Shown here in pieces: positions 5,094 through 36,846 of a stretch of 45,310 bases of DNA; positions within the stretch are counted from its first letter, which is position 1, and the number at the start of each line of letters is the position of its first letter. Both the position numbers and the translations under genes were made by a program. Below the pieces are notes generated by a model. That model did no database searches, was not told the origin of the DNA, and worked only from the letters and a program-made list of their open reading frames with translations. The stretch is from a virus, in IMG/VR virus record IMGVR_UViG_3300028590_000036, positions 1-45,310 of that record. One strand, given 5' to 3'.

Positions 5094-5166
5094 TGGTCTG
5101 TAGCTCAGAGGACAGAGCACCGGTCTACGAAGCCGGGTGTCGCAGGTTCGACTCCTGCCAGATCAG
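5094..5166 (+). tRNA. tRNA-Arg (ACG)
   Basis: A canonical cloverleaf: acceptor TGGTCTG with CAGATCA (one G-T pair), D arm GCTC/GAGC, anticodon stem CCGGT/GCCGG with loop CTACGAA, and T arm GCAGG TTCGACT CCTGC. The anticodon ACG reads arginine CGN codons. No complete CCA is encoded. The 224 bases before it (4870-5093) hold no tRNA or gene I can identify. Confidence 0.93.
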
Positions 5167-5254
5167 CAAACGAACCCTCGGAATGTGCGCACGACCTCCG
5201 GGGTAGTAGGGATCAGCCCACGCCTCTCGAAGAAGCGAACCTCGGGCTGGATTC

Positions 5255-5340
5255 GGAAGGTGCCGCTGAATGGTCGGCAACCGGTGTCGAATACCGGGGT
5301 GGGGTAAAACCCAGGGGTTCGATCCCTCCACCTTCCTCCA
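5255..5340 (+). tRNA. tRNA-Ser (CGA), CCA encoded
   Basis: A type II tRNA with acceptor GGAAGGT/ACCTTCC, anticodon stem CCGGT/ACCGG and loop GTCGAAT (anticodon CGA, serine). The long variable arm pairs GGGGT with CCC around AAAA. The T arm is AGGGG TTCGATC CCTCC. The 3' end encodes TCCA, so the CCA tail is in the DNA, as is common for phage tRNAs. Confidence 0.9.
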
Positions 5341-5408
5341 CGCCCCAACGGGTTGCTAGCGGCCACTTGATCAACGGCCGTGCTCGGGTTCGAATCCCGA
5401 GGGGGCTC
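5341..5408 (+). tRNA. Degenerate tRNA-like element
   Basis: A perfect T arm (TCGGG TTCGAAT CCCGA) is followed by a GGGGGCT acceptor strand. The upstream partner is poor: only GCCCC at 5342-5346 pairs, out of register. The body holds TTGCTAGCG and CACTTGAT, both also present in the tRNA-Ser(GCT) next door. It also has a 6-bp hairpin (5359-5381) with an 11-nt loop containing TTGATCAA. No normal D or anticodon arm can be drawn. The best reading is a rearranged or decaying Ser-type tRNA, or a tRNA mimic. Confidence 0.4.
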
Positions 5409-5409
5409 T

Positions 5410-5493
5410 GGAAGACAAATCGGCCGGGGGCCGAGCCGCGTTGCTAGCGCGTACGGGCACTTGATGTCTGGGGTTCGAGACCTCTGTCTTCCG
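5410..5493 (+). tRNA. tRNA-Ser (GCT)
   Basis: A type II tRNA: acceptor GGAAGAC/GTCTTCC, D arm TCGG/CCGA, anticodon loop TTGCTAG on stem CGCG/CGCG (anticodon GCT, reading AGC/AGU serine codons). The variable arm is GGCA/TGTC around CTTGA, and the T loop is TTCGAGA. The acceptor resembles that of tRNA-Ser(CGA), suggesting duplication of a Ser tRNA. Confidence 0.88.
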
Positions 5494-5496
5494 CAA

Positions 5497-5576
5497 CGGG
5501 GTGACCTCTTGGTAGAGGGAGCGGCCTGTAAAGCCGTGGCCGTAGTGCATTGGTGGTTCGACTCCATCCGCCCTGA
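5497..5576 (+). tRNA. tRNA-Tyr (GTA)
   Basis: Acceptor CGGGGTG pairs fully with CGCCCTG, allowing G-T pairs. The anticodon stem GCGGC/GCCGT carries loop CTGTAAA (anticodon GTA). It has a long variable arm, as expected for bacterial tRNA-Tyr, and T arm GGTGG TTCGACT CCATC. It starts four bases after the previous tRNA, so the cluster is probably one transcript. Confidence 0.9.
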
Positions 5577-5578
5577 CT

Positions 5579-5654
5579 GTGGCCGAAGCTGAAGCGGATA
5601 AGCGCCCGGTTGTGGTCCGGGTAGTAGTGGGTTCGAGTCCCACCGGCCACCCCA
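5579..5654 (+). tRNA. tRNA-His (GTG), CCA encoded
   Basis: Acceptor GTGGCCG/CGGCCAC, anticodon stem CCCGG/CCGGG with loop TTGTGGT (anticodon GTG), T arm GTGGG TTCGAGT CCCAC, and C plus CCA encoded at the 3' end. It is the last tRNA of the left cluster, two bases after tRNA-Tyr. Confidence 0.93.
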
Positions 5655-5705: not shown

Positions 5706-5984
5706 ATGTCGATCCCCGGCCGGAACACCCCGGAATGGCGAGCGCTGTGTAAGCGGCTCAAGCGGGAGCTCCCGAACATCTGCTGGGTCTGCGGCAACGA
5801 GATCGACCTCTCCCTGTCCGGCCGCGACAAGTGGGGCTGGAGCCTCGACCACGTCCGGAAGCTGTCCCTGCACCCGGAGCTCGCCGAAGACGAATCCAAT
5901 CTCCGCCCGGCTCATATGTGGTGCAACGCAACCCGAGGTGAGGGCGTACACGGCTACGTCAACGGCTCACAGAAGTGGGGATAG
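5706..5984 (+). CDS. HNH endonuclease
   Basis: A 92-aa HNH nuclease. It has a zinc pair CWVCG, the HNH core SLDHVRKLSLHPELAED then NLRPAHMWCN, and a short tail. The ATG at 5706 is preceded by GGGAGG at 5696-5702, which decides the start over in-frame ATGs upstream. Small HNH proteins next to the terminase genes assist cos cleavage in HK97-like phages, so a packaging role is likely. It opens the structural module right after the tRNA cluster. Confidence 0.9.
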   Translation: MSIPGRNTPEWRALCKRLKRELPNICWVCGNEIDLSLSGRDKWGWSLDHVRKLSLHPELAEDESNLRPAHMWCNATRGEGVHGYVNGSQKWG

Positions 5985-10582: not shown

Positions 10583-12139
10583 ATGGCTAGCTTCTGGTCC
10601 CGCCTGCGTAAGAAGGACGAACCCGAGACCCGCGACCTGTCGATCAACGACTGGATCTCGCAGATGAAGTCCCAGCAGACCTTCGGGTATCGGGGCAATC
10701 GCGAGACAGCCAAGCAAGAGTCCATCGGCGACCAATTCATCGAATACGTCCACGGCGCCTATCGCTCGAGCGGTGTGGTTTTCGCCTGCTGCCAGGCCCG
10801 CCAAATCATCTTCTCCGAGGCGCGGTTCGCGTTCCAGGACATCAGCAACTACCGCCCCGGCGACCTGGCTGACGGCCCGGAGCTGGATCTGCTCGACGTT
10901 CCCTGGGAGGGCGGCACTACCGGCGAGCTGCTGGCGCGGGCCATCCAGGACGTCGACTTGTCGGGCAACCACTACGTCGTCAAGGAGTACAAGGGCGAGG
11001 GCAAGTGGCAGCTACGCAGGCTCCGGCCCGACTGGGTCGACATCGTCCTGACGGCGGACCCGAAGATGGCTCGCCAGGCCGACATCGACGGCTACCTCTA
11101 CCGGCCGGACCGGACCGAGGACAAGAGGCTGTGGGAGTACTTCCCGGTCGACGGCTCCAACGGCCGCATCGCGCACTGGGCACCCATTCCTGACCCCGAG
11201 GCCATGTTCCGGGGCATGTCGTGGCTGACGCCGGTTGTCCGGGAAATCATGGGCGACAAAGCCATTTCCGACCACAAGCTCAAGTTCTTCGAGAACGCCG
11301 CGACGCCGAATCTGTCGGTCAGCCTGAAAGAGACCGTTTCGAAAGAGGACTTCGAGGAGTTCGTCGAGGCGATGGATGCCACGAAGGTCGGTGTCGAACA
11401 TGCCTACGAAACGCTCTATCTCGGCGGCGGCGCGGATGTTCAGGTCATCGGCGCGAACGTCCAGCAGATGGATTTCAAGGTTGTCACTGCGATCGGTGAG
11501 ACCCGAATTGCCGCCGCTGCCCGAGTGCCTGCAAGTGTTGCCGGTATCTCGGAAGGATTAGGCGGCTCGAGCCTCAACGAAGGCAACTTCAACGCCGCCA
11601 AGGACCAATTCGCTTCCGGCACACTCCGTCCACTCTGGCGTTCCATTTGCGCCGCCTACGCCCCACTGATCCAGGTGCCGAAGGGCAAGCGCCTCTGGTT
11701 CGACGACAGGGACATCAGTTTCCTGCGAGAGGACCAGCTCAAGGTCGCCCAGCGGTTCCAGATCGACGTCACCTCGGTTACCCGACTGGTGATGAACGGC
11801 TGGAAACCGGATGAGTCGGTTCGGGCCGTCCAGGAACGCAACCTGGGTCTGCTCGTCGGCGCGCATTCGGGCCTGTACTCGGTGCAGCTGCTTCCGCCGG
11901 AGGTCAGCAAGCCAGATCTCGCTGCGGCGAAAAAGGCCGAGGCGGATGCAGAACAAGCCAAGGGCGACAAGAAGAAAGACCCGCCCGCGAACCAACAAGG
12001 AACAGGCTCGAAGCGTCGACCCGGCCCCGGCAGGCCATCGAAGTCCGAAACCAAATCCGACGAATGGCTAGACGCCGTCCGGGATGGCGAGGACTGGCGC
12101 GAGGACTGGGAGGACGAAGATGACCAAACTGACCCGTGA
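10583..12139 (+). CDS. Portal protein
   Basis: A 518-aa HK97-like portal (dodecameric DNA channel at the head vertex). Typical features: a variable N-terminus, SSGVVFACCQARQI near residue 55-70, the core segment NHYVVKEYKGEGKWQLRRL, and a Gly/Asn-rich insertion loop (GGSSLNEGNFNAAKDQF). The C-terminal tail is charged, with PGPGRPSK and a run of acidic and Trp residues. It precedes the protease-capsid gene, the usual HK97 order. Confidence 0.95.
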   Translation: MASFWSRLRKKDEPETRDLSINDWISQMKSQQTFGYRGNRETAKQESIGDQFIEYVHGAYRSSGVVFACCQARQIIFSEARFAFQDISNYRPGDLADGPELDLLDVPWEGGTTGELLARAIQDVDLSGNHYVVKEYKGEGKWQLRRLRPDWVDIVLTADPKMARQADIDGYLYRPDRTEDKRLWEYFPVDGSNGRIAHWAPIPDPEAMFRGMSWLTPVVREIMGDKAISDHKLKFFENAATPNLSVSLKETVSKEDFEEFVEAMDATKVGVEHAYETLYLGGGADVQVIGANVQQMDFKVVTAIGETRIAAAARVPASVAGISEGLGGSSLNEGNFNAAKDQFASGTLRPLWRSICAAYAPLIQVPKGKRLWFDDRDISFLREDQLKVAQRFQIDVTSVTRLVMNGWKPDESVRAVQERNLGLLVGAHSGLYSVQLLPPEVSKPDLAAAKKAEADAEQAKGDKKKDPPANQQGTGSKRRPGPGRPSKSETKSDEWLDAVRDGEDWREDWEDEDDQTDP

Positions 12140-14438
12140 TTTCGAATTCCGGAGCGGCGGCGGGGACGGTGACGACGGTTTCACGCTGACTGGCTATGCG
12201 GCGGTGTTCAACCAGGACACCCAAATCCGCAGCTGGGAAGGAACATTTACCGAGCGCATCGCCCCCGGGGCTTTCCGAAAGACGCTGCGCGAGAACCCGA
12301 ACGTGATGATGCAGTTCAATCACGGGCACGACGTTCGGGTGGGCACGGTCCCGATCGGCCGCTTCACTGAAATGCGCGAAGACGAGCAGGGCCTCTTCGT
12401 CCAGGGACGACTGAACGACAACGACGTTGTGGAGCCGATCCGCCAGGCGCTGGTCGACAAGCAGATTCCCGGTATGTCGTTCCGGTTCATCGTCGTTCGC
12501 GATGAGTGGGCCGATAAGGACGGCAAGAAGATCCGCTCCGCTAACGAACTTGCCGAGATGCTGTACAACCCGGACCACGAACGCGGGCCCCTTCAGCGCA
12601 CGATCAAGGAACTCCGGATCTCCGAGGCGGGACCGGTCACTTCCCCGGCTTATCCACAGACCTCGGTAGGCGTGCGCAGCGCGGAGGATCTTGGCGAGGC
12701 CGAGCGGGCTGACATTGCCGCCAGCTACGTCCGAACCGCGCAGCTGGAGTCCGAAGAGCGCAGCGACGATCACAGCGACCACGTTCACTTCCGTTCCGAC
12801 GACGTCGAAGCCTGGCTCGAAGCCGAACGTGCCTTCAACTGGCTCGAAGCCGAACGTGCCTTCAACTGGCTCGAAGCCGAGCGCACACATCAATGGCTGG
12901 AAGCCGAAAAGGCCCATGCCGCAAAGACCCCGAGTGACGCCGACCGCCAGGTCACCTCGCTCGATACCCCGAAGTCCGACGCCGCCAAAAGCACCTCGGA
13001 GAAGCGGGACATCCCCACGAAATCCAAGAAGAAAGAGGCACGGGTTATGACCCTCGCTGAACTTCGCGAGCACCTGGCGGTCCTTCAGGGCCAGCGTGAC
13101 GCACTGAACGACGAATACGGCGAACGCGCCATGTCCGACGAGGACCAGGCGACCTTCGACAAGCTGACCTCCGACGCCGAGCGCACCGAGCGTCAGATCA
13201 AGGCCATCGAGAAGCGCCTGGCCGAGGCCAAGGGCAATGTCTCCGAGCGCACCATCGACGGCGCCCCGGGCTTCCGCAAGAGCGTGGACGAGGACGAGCT
13301 CCACGACATGGACGCCATCCGCGCCAGCGCCCGGTCCCTCGACGACCTCGTGGTCAAGAAGACCGACGCGGCCAAGCGGATCGCCGAGCGCATGAACTGG
13401 GCCACCACGGAGCGGACCGAGTCCAAGGATCACGCGATCTACCTGCTGGACAAGGACTACACCGGCGAGCTGGCCGAGCGCATGATCAACGCGGGCTCCA
13501 AGGCGTACGAGCGTGCCTGGTCGAAGTACGCGGCAGGCAAGGCGATCGGCGGCCTGACCTTCGAGGAGCAGCGCGCCCTCCAGCTGGGTAGCGATCCCGA
13601 CGGTGGCTTCGCCGTCCCCGTTCAGCTCGACCCCACGGTCATCTGGACCTCGGCGGGTGTCGTCAACCCGATCCGCTCGCTGGCGACGGTCAAGACGATC
13701 ACCGGCAAGGAATACCAGGGTGTGACCTCGGGTGGCACCACGGTCTCGCGTTCGCTGGAAGGCGCCGAGTTCGCGGAGAACACCTGGACCCTGGGCCAGC
13801 CGACCATCCGCACCGAGCGCGTGACCGGCTACACCACGTTCACCTACGAGGCCGAGGCATGGAACGCCATCCGCGAGGAGATCGTCTTCGCGCTGCGCGA
13901 CGCCAAGGACCGTGAGGAGGCCGAATCCTACACCAACGGCAACGGCACCTCGCCTGCTCCGTTCGGCCTGGTTTCGACCCACGCGGCCCCGAACCTGGTC
14001 GACACCGCCGTCACTGCCGCGTTCTCGGACGTCGACCTGTACGCGGTGAAGGAGGCTCTCGATCCTCGCTACCGTGCGGGCGCCGTCTGGATGATGGACG
14101 AGGGCATCGTTCACCAGATCCGCATGTGGGCGCAGAACGACGGCCCGGACCTGATCCAGCGCATCGACGGCCCCAACCCGGATCGCCTGCTGGGCTTCTC
14201 GGTTCACGAGAACTTCAACATGTCCTCGGCCCTGACCGCCGGTACGAAGATCGCGGTCTTCGGTGACCTGAAGGGTTACTACATCGTCGACCGCGTCGGC
14301 ATGTCCATCGAGGTCAACCAGATGGTCCTCGGCCCGAACCGTCGTCCGACCGGCCAGCGTGGCATCGCCGCCTACTGGATGAACAACGCCAAGTGGTGGG
14401 TTCCCGGTTCGGCGAAGACCCTGAAGATCAAGGCGTGA
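12120..14438 (+). CDS. Fused prohead protease and major capsid protein
   Basis: A 772-aa single reading frame. Residues 20-190 are an HK97-type prohead protease (peptidase U35-like) with FNHGHD (His68/His70) and PGMSFRF (Ser120). Residues 232-264 hold near-perfect 9-aa repeats WLEAERAFN. Residues from about 310 form the HK97-fold capsid protein, beginning with a helical delta-domain (LREHLAVLQGQRDAL) and continuing through YQGVTSGGTT to the C-terminus. An in-frame ATG at 13047 with AAAGAGG upstream could make the 463-aa capsid precursor alone. The start at 12120 is preceded by GGGAGGA and overlaps the portal gene. In most relatives the protease and capsid are separate genes. Confidence 0.93.
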   Translation: MTKLTRDFEFRSGGGDGDDGFTLTGYAAVFNQDTQIRSWEGTFTERIAPGAFRKTLRENPNVMMQFNHGHDVRVGTVPIGRFTEMREDEQGLFVQGRLNDNDVVEPIRQALVDKQIPGMSFRFIVVRDEWADKDGKKIRSANELAEMLYNPDHERGPLQRTIKELRISEAGPVTSPAYPQTSVGVRSAEDLGEAERADIAASYVRTAQLESEERSDDHSDHVHFRSDDVEAWLEAERAFNWLEAERAFNWLEAERTHQWLEAEKAHAAKTPSDADRQVTSLDTPKSDAAKSTSEKRDIPTKSKKKEARVMTLAELREHLAVLQGQRDALNDEYGERAMSDEDQATFDKLTSDAERTERQIKAIEKRLAEAKGNVSERTIDGAPGFRKSVDEDELHDMDAIRASARSLDDLVVKKTDAAKRIAERMNWATTERTESKDHAIYLLDKDYTGELAERMINAGSKAYERAWSKYAAGKAIGGLTFEEQRALQLGSDPDGGFAVPVQLDPTVIWTSAGVVNPIRSLATVKTITGKEYQGVTSGGTTVSRSLEGAEFAENTWTLGQPTIRTERVTGYTTFTYEAEAWNAIREEIVFALRDAKDREEAESYTNGNGTSPAPFGLVSTHAAPNLVDTAVTAAFSDVDLYAVKEALDPRYRAGAVWMMDEGIVHQIRMWAQNDGPDLIQRIDGPNPDRLLGFSVHENFNMSSALTAGTKIAVFGDLKGYYIVDRVGMSIEVNQMVLGPNRRPTGQRGIAAYWMNNAKWWVPGSAKTLKIKA
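12813..12912 (+). repeat. Tandem 27-bp repeats inside protease-capsid gene
   Basis: Two identical 27-bp units (12813-12839 and 12840-12866), a diverged third (12867-12893) and a partial fourth. They encode WLEAERAFN-type 9-mers predicted to be helical. The identity of the first two units suggests recent slippage expansion in the linker/scaffold region. Confidence 0.85.
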
Positions 14439-18162: not shown

Positions 18163-18235
18163 GCGGGCGTAGCTCAACTGGAAGAGCAGCGGTCTCCAAA
18201 GCCGCCGGTTGCAGGTTCGACTCCTGTCGCCCGCG
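18163..18235 (+). tRNA. tRNA-Trp (CCA)
   Basis: A canonical tRNA: acceptor GCGGGCG/CGCCCGC, D arm GCTC/GAGC, anticodon stem GCGGT/GCCGC with loop CTCCAAA (anticodon CCA), T arm GCAGG TTCGACT CCTGT. It lies alone inside the late operon, 27 bp before the tape measure gene and far from the other tRNAs. The tape measure it precedes has a strongly Trp-rich segment. Confidence 0.94.
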
Positions 18236-18261
18236 CATTCAGCTGAACCCGAGGGGGATTC

Positions 18262-23820: not shown

Positions 23821-24774
23821 GTGGAACTCGAGCTTCCCGAAGAGATGGAGATCATCTACGAAGGCTGGAACGGCAGAACGTTTCACTGGTCCGGTGGTGA
23901 ACTCGCTGGCAAAGAAGGCGTGAGCCTGGCGCTGCCGGAAGCTGGCGTCGATTTCGAGGATATGTACGAATCGCCTTTCGAGACGATCTACAACTCCACG
24001 GCATTCGAGGTCGGCGGAAGGTACGGCGGCGTCCGCGAGAACATGATGGAGTTCACCCTCGCGTTCCATATCCGGCCGACCGTGAACACACCCTGGCGGA
24101 TCATCGAGTCCCGATTCCGCAAGGCCCTGCATCACAAGAACACCGGCGGCAAGATCCGGGTGAAGATCGTCGGCGAATCCGAGCGCTGGCTCAACGTTCG
24201 ACTCCGCTCCCAGCCGAAGCTGAAGCTGAAGCGTGATCCGATCGTGGGGCGGTACGGCCTGCTGATCGTGACCTTCGTTGCCAACTTCCCCCGCTGGGTC
24301 GAAGACGATTACACCGCCGAGTACGTCACCACCACGGACACAACCGCTGGTGGCGACGAGCTGGCGATGCTGTGGATCTCGAATCCGACGAACAACGAAG
24401 CCTGGCCGAAGTGGGTCTGCCAAGCCGGTAACGCCGACATCGTCTGGACCCTGCCGGACTTCTCCTGGGGCGATGACCGCTTCGAGATGGCCGAGGCCCA
24501 CGACGACCGGATGCTCGACCTGCCCGAGCTGATCCTGGGCGAGCACGTGGTTGTCGACACCGACGAGATGACGATGGCAGGACAGGTTGTCTCCAGCCTC
24601 GACACCCAGGTCTACCTGCGCATGGATGGCCGCGAGTTCTTATATCCGCTTCCCGCTTACCTCGATCCCGTGCAGGTGCCCATCTCGGTGACCGGCGCGC
24701 AGATCGGCAATCTGATCCAGGTTCGCATTCCCCGGACTTGGTCGCGCCCGTGGGGGCTGGAGGGGGGTGACTGA
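23821..24774 (+). CDS. Distal tail (Dit-like) protein
   Basis: A 317-aa protein directly after the tape measure, the usual place of the distal tail protein that caps the tube. Segments such as RFRKALHHKNTGGKIRVKIV and the beta-rich C-terminus (VSSLDTQVYLRMDG) fit actinophage minor tail proteins. The GTG at 23821 is chosen because GGAGG at 23811 precedes it. It overlaps the next gene by one base. Confidence 0.75.
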   Translation: MELELPEEMEIIYEGWNGRTFHWSGGELAGKEGVSLALPEAGVDFEDMYESPFETIYNSTAFEVGGRYGGVRENMMEFTLAFHIRPTVNTPWRIIESRFRKALHHKNTGGKIRVKIVGESERWLNVRLRSQPKLKLKRDPIVGRYGLLIVTFVANFPRWVEDDYTAEYVTTTDTTAGGDELAMLWISNPTNNEAWPKWVCQAGNADIVWTLPDFSWGDDRFEMAEAHDDRMLDLPELILGEHVVVDTDEMTMAGQVVSSLDTQVYLRMDGREFLYPLPAYLDPVQVPISVTGAQIGNLIQVRIPRTWSRPWGLEGGD

Positions 24775-25889
24775 TGTCTGTCACCGCTATCGACCCGGAC
24801 CAGGTATTCGACGAGATCATCAACCGCGAGTTCGGTCGGCGCGAAAGGCGTGTGGGCCAGCCCGCTGTGAAGTTGATGGACGGCAACATGGTCCTGCGGG
24901 GCCGCGCCACCCAGATCATCCGCGCCGACTTCAAAGAGATCGAGTGGGACGTCGGTATCGGCACGCTGGAGATGCCGGAGGAGTACTACCTCTCGAAATG
25001 GGTTGCCGCCCACGATGAGCGCACCACCCAGAACATCCACGTCGCTGTCGAAAAGGACGGCATCAGGTGGACCGGGCGCATGGAGCGCTACGAGATCGAG
25101 ACCAACAAGGACGGCCTGACAATCGTCCGGTGCATCTTCAAGCACGATTTCGCCGAGCTCCAGAACATCCTCTGCTGGGCCAATCCGTTTTTGCCCGCCG
25201 AGGTGCAATTTCCGAAGGTGTTTCTACTTTTCGGGAGCGCGAAATTCTGCCTCAAGGCCGCCCTTTTTTGTAACATCCTTCGCCTCGAGAACAACCTCTG
25301 GAGTCTGCCCGACAACCCCCTCGATCCCGACGAGTGGAACGACTACCTGAACCCGTTGGATCAAAGTCAGTGGACCATCGCGGTGCATCCGGATTTGGCC
25401 GATGATGCTAGTCCGCTAGCGCTGTTCTACAGCCGGTTCAAGGACTTCGTCTCGGCCTCCAAGGACATCGGCCAGGACGCTCAGCTGACCCCGGTCCTGC
25501 GGCGCTGGTTCGAAGGTGACGATCCGCCGTGGCCGGGCGCCAACTTACGTCATGGCTGCCTGGTCGTGGATTTCGAAGACAACTCGGGCTGGACGACCGG
25601 AACTGCCTTCGAGGGAAGCCTTTTCACGGGTCTGATTCACGCGCTGGTCAACATCGGCAGTGACGGCATGACCGAGGGCATCGACATCATGGATGACCCG
25701 ATCACGTACCCGCCGGAGTACTTCCAGTCGGGTTACAAGGGTTCGTTCCCGTCGGCTCCGTCGCTGATCTTCCGTGCGGCCGAGGGTTCGGCGATCCAGT
25801 CCAGCAATTTCACTAACCGCGCCGCTGGAGCACTTCAGCACGTCACCGGTGGACATTCGATGCCGGGGGTCGTCGGTGCCCTGCTCTGA
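24774..25889 (+). CDS. Gp37-like minor tail protein, N-terminal part
   Basis: 371 aa of a protein resembling the ReqiPepy6 Gp37-like (baseplate hub) family of Rhodococcus-type siphoviruses. Features include a beta-rich N-terminal domain (KLMDGNMVLRGRATQIIRAD), a middle region with aromatic acidic runs (DDPPWPGANLRHG), and the segment TGGHSMPGVVGALL just before a TGA at 25887. The next 193 codons in the same frame look like the rest of the protein. The stop lies in the loop of a 12-bp hairpin. The gene may be truncated, split, or completed by readthrough or bypass. Confidence 0.75.
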   Translation: MSVTAIDPDQVFDEIINREFGRRERRVGQPAVKLMDGNMVLRGRATQIIRADFKEIEWDVGIGTLEMPEEYYLSKWVAAHDERTTQNIHVAVEKDGIRWTGRMERYEIETNKDGLTIVRCIFKHDFAELQNILCWANPFLPAEVQFPKVFLLFGSAKFCLKAALFCNILRLENNLWSLPDNPLDPDEWNDYLNPLDQSQWTIAVHPDLADDASPLALFYSRFKDFVSASKDIGQDAQLTPVLRRWFEGDDPPWPGANLRHGCLVVDFEDNSGWTTGTAFEGSLFTGLIHALVNIGSDGMTEGIDIMDDPITYPPEYFQSGYKGSFPSAPSLIFRAAEGSAIQSSNFTNRAAGALQHVTGGHSMPGVVGALL

Positions 25890-25931
25890 ATAAGGGTGGG
25901 GCACCGGCGATCTCGCCATTTCAACGAAATG
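25870..25931 (+). other. Stop-codon hairpin inside Gp37-like gene
   Basis: TCGTCGGTGCCC (25870-25881) pairs with GGGCACCGGCGA (25899-25910): 12 bp with one G-T pair. The 17-nt loop contains the in-frame TGA (25887). A second hairpin, CATTTC (25917-25922) with GAAATG (25926-25931), covers the first in-frame ATG after it. No T-run follows, so it is not a typical terminator. Confidence 0.75.
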
Positions 25932-26477
25932 ATCTCGGCCGCAATCCAAATGGCCGGTGACCTGATCGCAGCAATGATCGGCGTTCCCCCCGTTGGCGGT
26001 GCTGCGGACGCAATTCTGAAACCCCTTTATACAGACGTCTTTTTAGCATTTATGCACTGGAAAGACTTGGGGCGCAAGGCAACTCTCGGCGACTTCTGCT
26101 ACCAGGAGCGCTGGGCCGAAGGTAGCGACAGGGCCTATACGTTATCCGCCATTGTCGCACTCAGGACGTCTATCTGGGCGACCAGGCAGACTTTCACGCA
26201 TCGACTGGAAGTGGCAGACGGTGCGCCGTGGCTGGTGGGTCAGCGCGGGCGCGGCCATTTCTACCTCGGCCACCGCGTCGGCTCCGTCCCCAAGGGCACG
26301 CCCAAGGGGAAGATCTACGTCGACCGCGTCACCGAAATCGGCCTCACCTGGGACCGGCAGACAACGCCTACGTGGCAGGTAATTATCGGCGAGCGCGTCA
26401 TGGAAGATCCAATCCTCAAGGCGCTCAAGAAGGTCAAGGAAATCGCGGGTATCGCCCGTGACCTCGGCGTGCTCTGA
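25896..26477 (+). CDS. Gp37-like minor tail protein, C-terminal part
   Basis: 193 aa in the same frame as the preceding gene, after a single TGA. From residue 12 on it reads MISAAIQMAGDLIAAM, then VGGAADAILKPLYTDVF and GLTWDRQTTPTW. This looks like the normal continuation of the Gp37-like family. The possible starts are poor: GTG 25896 has AAGG only three bases away, and ATG 25929 has no ribosome site and is in a hairpin. It may be made by reinitiation, readthrough or ribosome bypass. Confidence 0.7.
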   Translation: MGHRRSRHFNEMISAAIQMAGDLIAAMIGVPPVGGAADAILKPLYTDVFLAFMHWKDLGRKATLGDFCYQERWAEGSDRAYTLSAIVALRTSIWATRQTFTHRLEVADGAPWLVGQRGRGHFYLGHRVGSVPKGTPKGKIYVDRVTEIGLTWDRQTTPTWQVIIGERVMEDPILKALKKVKEIAGIARDLGVL

Positions 26478-28641: not shown

Positions 28642-28802
28642 ACGAATGTGAATGCCCGCATCCGGACCTCTGCACTCACCCGAGTCACGACCTGCTCCGC
28701 TTCCGGAACGACAAGGTCACCCTGGAGCGAGTGCTGGATTCCATCGAGTCGGACTACGAGAAGCTCCGGCAGATCGAGAAGATCGTGGAGGCCATGCCAT
28801 GA
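28638..28802 (+). CDS. Small Cys/His protein
   Basis: A 54-aa protein starting at a GTG in a GTGA overlap. The N-terminus CECPHPDLCTHPSH could bind zinc. The rest is one helix (LERVLDSIESDYEKL) suited to pairing. It overlaps the endolysin gene by four bases. The function is unknown. Confidence 0.6.
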   Translation: MNECECPHPDLCTHPSHDLLRFRNDKVTLERVLDSIESDYEKLRQIEKIVEAMP

Positions 28803-30520
28803 CCCGCACCACAGTAGATTTCGCTGCCAAGCTGATATCGCCGCAAGCCATCAAGGACGCCGGGCACGAGGGCGTGATGGTCTACGTCTCGCCGAGTCGG
28901 CCCGGGTCGAACTTCGCGGCCAAGCCGATCCAGCGGGCGTTCACTAATGAGTGCCGTTCAATCGGATTGAACATCGTCTCGATCTGGCAGTTCGGCAAGC
29001 CCGGCAACGCCCAGGCCCCGAGCGACTGGACCACCGGTTTCGAGGGCGGCCAGCGGATGGCGACCGAAGCTCAGGCCCGGCACCTCCAGGCAGGCGGACC
29101 CGATCACGCACCGATCTTCTTCGCCGTCGACGAGGACTTGAGCATCGACAACTGGAACCGGACGGCCGTCGAGTTCTTCCGGGGCGTCAACAGCGTCCTG
29201 GGCGTGCAGCGGACCGGCGTCTACGGATCGTCGAAGGTGTGCTCCTGGGCGGTGGAGGACGGCGTCATCGGACGTAGCCGTACCCACGGGCGCTTCTGGG
29301 CGTGGCAGACGCGGGCGTGGTCCGGAGGGGAGCTCTCGCCCGAGGCCGTCCTGTTCCAGCGCGTCATCGACACACCCTCCAACCCCGGCCCCTTGATCGA
29401 CGGCGCCTCCGTGGACGTCAACGACATCTGGGCCGACGACTACGGACAGTGGAGCGACAAGGCTCCGGAAGGCCCTTCCATGGCACAGAAACCCGACTTC
29501 CAAGAGATCGACCGCTTCGGCAATTCCCGCTCCAACCGCTTCAACGCACGCGTCACCAACTGGCTGATCCACACCCAGGAGGGCAACGGCACTGCGGAGT
29601 CGCTGGCGGGCTACCTCAACAACCAGGCCAACGGCGTCTCCTACCACTACACGGTCCGCGACGGCGTGGTTGTGAATGTGGTCGACACCGACTACGCCAG
29701 CTGGTCCGTCCTGGACGCCAACAGCTACACGATCAACCTCTGTTTCGCGGGCAGCTACGCCAGCTGGACTCGGGAGCAGTGGCTCGAGCGTGAACACGAC
29801 ATCCGGATCGCGGCGTGGCTGGCGGTGCAGGACGCGAAGAAGTACGGCTTCTCCGTCGAGGTCATCGCGCCCCCGTACCACCAGGCGCCGGGCATCTCCG
29901 ATCACCGCTACGTCACCGAGGAGCTGGGGATCGGCACGCACACCGACGTCGGCCGCAACTTCCCGTGGGATGTGCTGGCGCGGTTCGTCGCGGAGTACAC
30001 CGAGGCCGGTCCGATCCGGGTTCCGAACGCGATCAACGACTGCGAGGCCGCCAACGCCTGGCTGGGGGAGCGGTTCACCAAGGAGGAGCTGCGCACGCCC
30101 GACGGCAAGGGCCGCTTCGTCCAGTACGACAACGGCTTCATCTACTGGTCTCCGGACTCGGGCGCGCACCCCATCCCGAAGGATCTGTTCCCGAAGTTCG
30201 GTGATCTCGGCTGGGAGGTCGGTCCGCTGGGTTACCCGACGACCGATCCGACGAAGCTCACCGATGGTTGGGTCCAGGGCTTCCAGGGCGGCGCGCTCTA
30301 CAAGAAGCTCGACCAGCCCGCCCGGTGGGTGCACGGCGAGATCCGCAACCGCTGGAACCGGACCGGCTTCGAGAACGGCCCGCTGGGTTGGCCCACCTCC
30401 GACGAGTTCCCCTTCGGCGACGGTGCCGCGCAGGACTTCGAGAAGGGCCGCATCTACTGGGCCCCGAAGCCGACTGTCGTGGTCCTGGCCGACGGCTCGG
30501 GGCTCAAGGACGCGGCATGA
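28799..30520 (+). CDS. lysA: Endolysin (GH25-like/DUF1906, amidase, LGFP)
   Basis: A 573-aa lysin with three modules. Residues 1-215 resemble the glycoside-hydrolase-like DUF1906 domain (FFAVDEDLS with Asp111/Asp113). Residues about 230-400 are an N-acetylmuramoyl-L-alanine amidase of the PGRP/amidase-2 fold, with candidate zinc ligands His258 (LIHTQEG), His369 (SDHRY) and His381 (GTHTDVG). Residues 405-560 hold LGFP-type wall-binding repeats (FGDLGWEVGPLGYPTTD, FENGPLGWPTSDEF). It lacks a signal peptide, so the holin encoded next should release it. It starts in an ATGA overlap. Confidence 0.92.
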   Translation: MTRTTVDFAAKLISPQAIKDAGHEGVMVYVSPSRPGSNFAAKPIQRAFTNECRSIGLNIVSIWQFGKPGNAQAPSDWTTGFEGGQRMATEAQARHLQAGGPDHAPIFFAVDEDLSIDNWNRTAVEFFRGVNSVLGVQRTGVYGSSKVCSWAVEDGVIGRSRTHGRFWAWQTRAWSGGELSPEAVLFQRVIDTPSNPGPLIDGASVDVNDIWADDYGQWSDKAPEGPSMAQKPDFQEIDRFGNSRSNRFNARVTNWLIHTQEGNGTAESLAGYLNNQANGVSYHYTVRDGVVVNVVDTDYASWSVLDANSYTINLCFAGSYASWTREQWLEREHDIRIAAWLAVQDAKKYGFSVEVIAPPYHQAPGISDHRYVTEELGIGTHTDVGRNFPWDVLARFVAEYTEAGPIRVPNAINDCEAANAWLGERFTKEELRTPDGKGRFVQYDNGFIYWSPDSGAHPIPKDLFPKFGDLGWEVGPLGYPTTDPTKLTDGWVQGFQGGALYKKLDQPARWVHGEIRNRWNRTGFENGPLGWPTSDEFPFGDGAAQDFEKGRIYWAPKPTVVVLADGSGLKDAA

Positions 30521-36763: not shown

Positions 36764-36846
36764 GGACCGGTAGCTCAACGGAAGAGCACTGCCGCGCGGA
36801 TCAACAGGTACAGAAGACGCAGGTTCGAATCCTGCCCGGTCCCCCA
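36764..36846 (+). tRNA. Aberrant tRNA with expanded anticodon loop, CCA encoded
   Basis: Perfect acceptor GGACCGG/CCGGTCC, normal D arm GCTC/GAGC, perfect T arm GCAGG TTCGAAT CCTGC and encoded C-CCA. The region 36789-36818 is 30 nt, about 8 more than normal. The best fold is CTG-CC with GG-(TA)-CAG enclosing a 13-nt loop GCGCGGATCAACA. No normal 7-nt anticodon loop can be placed, so amino acid identity is unclear. Confidence 0.6.

Follow-up and report, generated by a model that had tools for sequence, protein, structure and literature searches.

A likely translational bypass element in the tail hub gene of actinobacteriophages

How is a complete tail hub protein made from a phage gene whose reading frame is broken by a single stop codon at the top of a long RNA hairpin? 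The question is raised by a virus record (IMGVR_UViG_3300028590_000036, positions 1 to 45,310), the whole 45,310-nt stretch of which is referred to below as the window, and which carries a portal gene, a protease–capsid fusion, a tape measure gene and a hub gene in the usual order. The hub gene reading frame, on the plus strand like the parts of the insert, is open from 24774 to 25889 (371 aa), ends at a TGA at 25887-25889, and reopens in the same frame to 26477. The Pfam family Sipho_Gp37 (PF14594) matches both halves in a contiguous and complementary manner, at profile positions 2-249 (E 1.6e-52) and 248-370 (E 9e-30). A preliminary description of the locus had taken the two open segments for one Gp37-like protein split by a single TGA, and that claim held on the evidence of both the frames and the profile halves. 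The solved relatives, Bxb1 gp25 (PDB 9d93, 600 aa) and Douge gp18 (8zdo), are single-chain baseplate hubs. Close kin of the window gene were found neither by megablast against phages nor by a close-relative scan of viral contigs.

Several other features of the window may be recorded here. The prohead protease (Peptidase_S78) and capsid (Phage_capsid) domains are fused in one open reading frame at 12084-14438, and a lysin-like protein at 28652-30520 combines an Rv2525c-type glycoside hydrolase, an amidase and LGFP repeats. Seven tRNA genes (Arg, Ser, Ser, Tyr, His, Trp and Pro) are predicted at 5094-5654, 18163-18236 and 36764-36846, the tRNA-Trp gene lying just before the tape measure gene. 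A match to an HNH endonuclease at 5781-5939 is weak (E 3.9e-5, under the Pfam cut-off).

A 51-nt insert in an invariant motif

Alignment of the window protein with 17 hub proteins from phage isolates shows exactly 17 extra codons (51 nt, 25872-25922, counting the stop) between PGV and NE. All 17 isolate relatives are free of the insert, none of them having a gap at this site, and the motif is likewise uninterrupted in about 75 of 80 further loci. The preliminary description had supposed that 25873-25923 would prove to be an in-frame insertion of 17 codons between GGHSMPGV and NE if checked against relatives, and this held to the codon. The insert interrupts the most conserved motif of the hub gene, GGHSMPGV^NE. 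The upstream coding part of this Gp37-like tail (baseplate) hub gene thus comprises codons 1-366 (24774-25871), ending at the proposed take-off codon discussed below, and the downstream part (25923-26477) resumes at AAC GAA, encoding Asn-Glu.

Folding with RNAfold gives a hairpin at 25866-25914, in which 25866-25887 pairs with 25893-25914 to give 22 bp, several of them G-U, closed by a 5-nt loop. A 121-nt segment folds at -64.1 kcal/mol (z -5.0, reached in 0 of 200 shuffles), and an 81-nt segment gives z -5.85. The hairpin itself had been noticed in the preliminary description, which gave it a 12-bp stem and placed the TGA within a 17-nt loop; those dimensions failed, as the TGA straddles the top of the stem and the loop. 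A second, small hairpin proposed there at 25917-25931, over the landing site, is present in the sequence and its folding, and was not seen to be conserved in other members of the family described below. The claim that the possible restarts lack a good ribosome site held as well: we found no ribosome-binding site 5' of any in-frame restart in the window. A search of the element against Rfam returned no match.

Equivalent inserts in other hub genes

To collect elements of the same design, viral contigs were scanned with patterns for the hairpin core, phage records were searched with the elements themselves, and a covariance model was used. The first hairpin-core scan of viral contigs returned two hub genes, L003 (the isolate MOOREtheMARYer) and L007, in which the same motif is interrupted and coding continues downstream in another frame. 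In all we recovered 22 non-identical elements from about 13 lineages, every one of them in a Gp37-like hub gene at the motif GG-x-S-(M)P-x-(W/G)-(L/V)-N. The carriers include 14 named phage isolates (ten of the Spartacus group together with Sbash, Mycofy1, Lang and MOOREtheMARYer) and several prophages; among those isolated from plaques are Spartacus, MadMen, Kersh, Sbash, Mycofy1, Lang and MOOREtheMARYer. The 297 genomes from the genus of M. peregrinum (G001) yielded four elements, all within hub genes, and 399 genomes from its order yielded no new one. Many pattern-scan matches were dropped as chance hairpins outside hub genes, and L207 was dropped too. We note in passing that the GenBank annotations of affected hub genes are truncated or run in the wrong frame past the element (L140:601-2378 in MOOREtheMARYer, L139:502-2264 in Spartacus, and L153, L154, L155, L156 and L157); Sbash gp17 and its Mycofy1 counterpart, for example, are annotated at 553 aa with an out-of-frame C-terminus.

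All elements share one order of parts: a take-off codon (UGG, UUG or GUN), one further codon (GUC, GUG or GCU), a hairpin arm resembling GGUGCCCC, a loop, the complementary arm, a short tail, a landing codon similar to the take-off codon, and the codon at which the family protein resumes. The hairpin is of 18-22 bp and covaries. The gap from take-off to resume codon measures 49-57 nt, and phases 0, 1 and 2 all occur. In 14 UGG-type elements, a 17-bp helix is paired in 238 of 238 cells, with six pairs changed on both sides, and its covariation score of 0.363 compares with 0.129 in shuffles, none of 500 shuffles reaching it. A covariance model built from UGG-type elements only, with the window excluded, finds 25851-25937 as its sole match in the window (26.5 bits, E 9.4e-5). 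The window's own type has six members (the window, L028, L195, L163, L164 and L165) in which PG-GUN-GUN precedes the hairpin, four of the six being out of frame; the 5' flank GGACATTCGATGCCGGGGGT at 25851-25870 of the window is identical in L195.

The codons at the two ends of the gap resemble each other. Over 13 lineages, 29 of 39 letters are identical between take-off and landing codons, as against 3 of 39 for the codons before or after (shuffle p 5e-5, an optimistic figure in that the lineages are not fully independent). The pair is perfect in L206, L145 and L152, differs synonymously (GUU/GUC) in L195 and L165, and matches at two of three letters in the window and wherever UGG is paired with UGA; L163 and L164 land on GCC. 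The landing codon of UGG-type elements is UGA, UGG or UGC; a Leu or Val codon comes next, and Asn after it. In L206 a perfect UUG-to-UUG pair lands directly before Asn. In Sbash and Mycofy1, UGG is followed by GCT, and UGA by CTG or CTC. This favours UGG with UGA as the two paired codons, with the Leu codon translated, and it argues against GUC, also considered, as the take-off codon of UGG-type elements. In Spartacus the Leu codon is evidently translated, because CTC there replaces the TTG that precedes Asn in Tweety, a synonymous change right at the junction.

Placed in the register of L206, window-type elements would pair GUN with GUC, GCC, UUC or UUG and yield PGV^(N/D)E. For the window itself, the register seen at UGG and UUG elsewhere (take-off, one codon, GGUGCC hairpin core) leads us to infer GUC at 25869-25871 (Val366) as the take-off codon and UUC at 25920-25922, directly 5' of the conserved Asn like UUG in L206, as the landing triplet. 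This assignment is the weakest step of the analysis: UUC matches GUC at only two of three letters, and a second GUC, at 25872-25874, could serve as take-off instead. A Gly take-off codon for the window type was rejected, as it has no matching landing codon and would place F, A or L where a near-invariant Val stands.

Reading across the gap as if it were absent restores the family protein exactly. At this site a difference of exactly 53 nt separates MOOREtheMARYer from the insert-free Pinnie, and the two then yield proteins of 575 aa that are 98% identical. The joined Spartacus product has the same amino acids as the protein of insert-free Tweety throughout the upstream half and over the first 130 residues that follow the junction. 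At the nucleotide level, Spartacus and Tweety show 32 differences across the 1.7-kb gene, of which 19 cluster around the insert, no farther than 25 nt upstream or 60 nt downstream of it, and all 19 are synonymous; Lang and Grizzly are 98-99% identical over 600 nt on each side, but only 70% and 87% identical in the 30 nt beside the insert. These patterns suggest a recent transfer of the cassette together with short flanks by gene conversion.

The flank CGATCGCC (L139:1651-1661, and the same place in the other UGG-type elements) is common to very different hub genes. It contains the Arg codon CGA and is invariant in the aligned UGG-type elements; the insert-free Tweety, Catdawg and Grizzly have other codons at this position. 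Possibly it is a functional RNA signal, or else a flank that was co-converted with the element. No homing endonuclease linked to the insert was found adjoining the hub gene, although only two HNH profiles were tried, and HNH genes (PF01844) occur in phages both with and without the element.

Translational bypassing and its alternatives

For the family protein to be made, the insert must remain undecoded; this much is shown, on comparative evidence only. We consider it likely that the insert is a programmed translational bypass element, resembling that of T4 gene 60 without being homologous to it, although no experiment or proteomics is available for any member. In this view, the ribosome would translate up to the take-off codon (GUC at 25869-25871 in the window, UGG or UUG in others), where the long hairpin that starts at this codon would cause the peptidyl-tRNA to let go. 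The ribosome would then slide about 50 nt until the tRNA pairs again, with a similar codon immediately 5' of the conserved (Leu/Val)-Asn or Asn/Asp-Glu codons, and translation would resume to give an ordinary full-length hub protein. That the skipping takes place on the ribosome, and how efficiently, remain inferences. The T4-type bypass had already been raised as a possibility in the preliminary description, and the equivalent elements in other reading phases now support it as the best explanation.

Some observations count against bypassing. The window's landing UUC departs from GUC at its first base, L163 and L164 land on GCC, the UGG-to-UGA match is imperfect, and the hairpin is much longer than seems easy to cross. 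In none of the 22 elements is the take-off codon followed at once by a stop; the next codon is GUC, GUG or GCU. No nascent-peptide signal resembling KKYK is apparent in the window's upstream protein, where a functional equivalent could not be assessed from sequence.

The main rival is removal at the RNA level, in which a miniature splicing or processing step would excise the 49-57 nt from the mRNA and the product would be translated normally. It gives the same joined reading frame as bypassing, and from sequence alone the two cannot be distinguished. The site, moreover, is known to accept spliced elements, as in cluster J phages a real group I intron interrupts this motif about 15 nt farther upstream (PMC3706429). 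Nevertheless, we regard RNA removal as unlikely. The element is about five times shorter than the 265-bp BAKA intron and leaves no room for a group I catalytic core of a few hundred nucleotides, of which there is no sign in 49-57 nt without an Rfam match. In addition, like codons at both ends and a constant one-codon offset to the hairpin are expected of a tRNA hop, not of splicing.

Still less probable is a split gene, whose halves would be made separately by termination and restart and then assemble together. In its favour, GenBank gives two coding sequences for Spartacus, MadMen, Kersh, Lang and MOOREtheMARYer. Against it, in-frame starts close to the junction lack a convincing ribosome site throughout, and within 60 nt there is no such start at all in Sbash, Lang or L134. 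There is no nearby termination in five members (Sbash, Lang, MOOREtheMARYer, L152 and L204), where the upstream frame stays open for 71-197 codons past the junction. The break would also separate a strand from a helix inside an invariant motif, in a protein that is one chain in its solved relatives.

Stop-codon readthrough acting only in the window is all but ruled out. It would give two forms of the hub, of 371 aa and of 567 aa, the longer one carrying 17 additional residues, and it finds support in a UGA stop in the window and in the shared frame on both sides of the gap in the window, L028, MadMen, Kersh and L134. It would, however, be useless to most homologous elements, which are out of frame; the stop is TAA in L028, L134 has two stops, and the extra residues would break the invariant motif. 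Because several upstream frames run on for so many codons and the downstream part lacks a ribosome site, readthrough and reinitiation both fail as general explanations. A recent mutation, pseudogene or assembly error, conceivable for a single virus record seen once, is practically excluded: homologous elements are present in 14 named isolates and in several prophages, and compensatory changes in their stems span many separately sequenced phages and so exclude an isolated sequencing error. Of the alternatives held open in the preliminary description, regulated readthrough giving two protein sizes is therefore not supported, and a plain split gene or recent mutation is disfavoured by the element family, the missing restart signals and the empty-site relatives.

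Returning to bypassing, a bolder reading, which we hold more likely than not, is that these inserts form a widespread class of mobile bypass cassettes spreading among actinobacteriophages by gene conversion into one hub motif, with tRNA-Trp, tRNA-Leu or tRNA-Val hopping over 49-57 nt from a take-off site that has neither an adjacent stop nor KKYK. If true, this would turn the T4 oddity into a recurrent and mobile type of genetic element, and it suggests that bypass cassettes are selfish elements sharing a target motif with a group I intron.

Relation to known bypass systems and introns

Efficient programmed bypassing has so far been described for T4 gene 60 and the mitochondrial byps, along with a few candidates (PMC5009743), and we found no prior report of it in mycobacteriophages in the literature searched, most subscription journals being outside that search. 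In the present case this solution appears to have turned up again, in a gene that looks essential and in phages that are readily grown on M. smegmatis. Natural variants of take-off codon, gap length, phase and hairpin, with insert-free close relatives to serve as controls, allow the rules of take-off and landing to be tested comparatively. More immediately, current GenBank records truncate or mis-frame the affected hub proteins.

The byps of Magnusiomyces capitatus mitochondria are likewise short blocks skipped in translation, some of them with landing triplets that match at two of three letters (PMC5009743). They occupy 81 sites in many mitochondrial genes, whereas the hub element is confined to one site in one phage gene and has a conserved hairpin sequence. 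The terminase candidate of Streptomyces phage Hau3 also comes from an actinobacterial phage in which bypassing has been proposed (PMC5009743); it lies in another gene and is tied to a UUA codon, which is not found at the hub take-off sites. The group I intron of BAKA and Duke13 breaks the same hub-gene motif, GG-x-S-P-x-W-L-N, about 15 nt upstream, but it is a catalytic element of 265 bp that is spliced (PMC3706429). In Duke13 the intron occupies L023:1255-1560, where the Rfam model Intron_gpI gives E 9.7e-5, below its gathering score.

In its working the hub element would resemble T4 gene 60. No sequence homology is seen, the host gene is a tail hub instead of a topoisomerase, and the hub elements, which recur in many phages, take off from UGG, UUG or GUN and not from GGA, with a hairpin of 18-22 bp, no stop after the take-off codon and no KKYK. 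We conclude that the hub element is not a member of the T4 gene 60 type by descent. Both designs place the take-off codon within the hairpin base and have a landing codon similar to it. The gap is in each case close to 50 nt (50 in T4, from GGA to GGA; T4 bypassing is processive to 56 nt (PMC11194080), which the gaps of 49-57 nt fit), and each is an insert in a conserved phage gene that bears signs of mobility.
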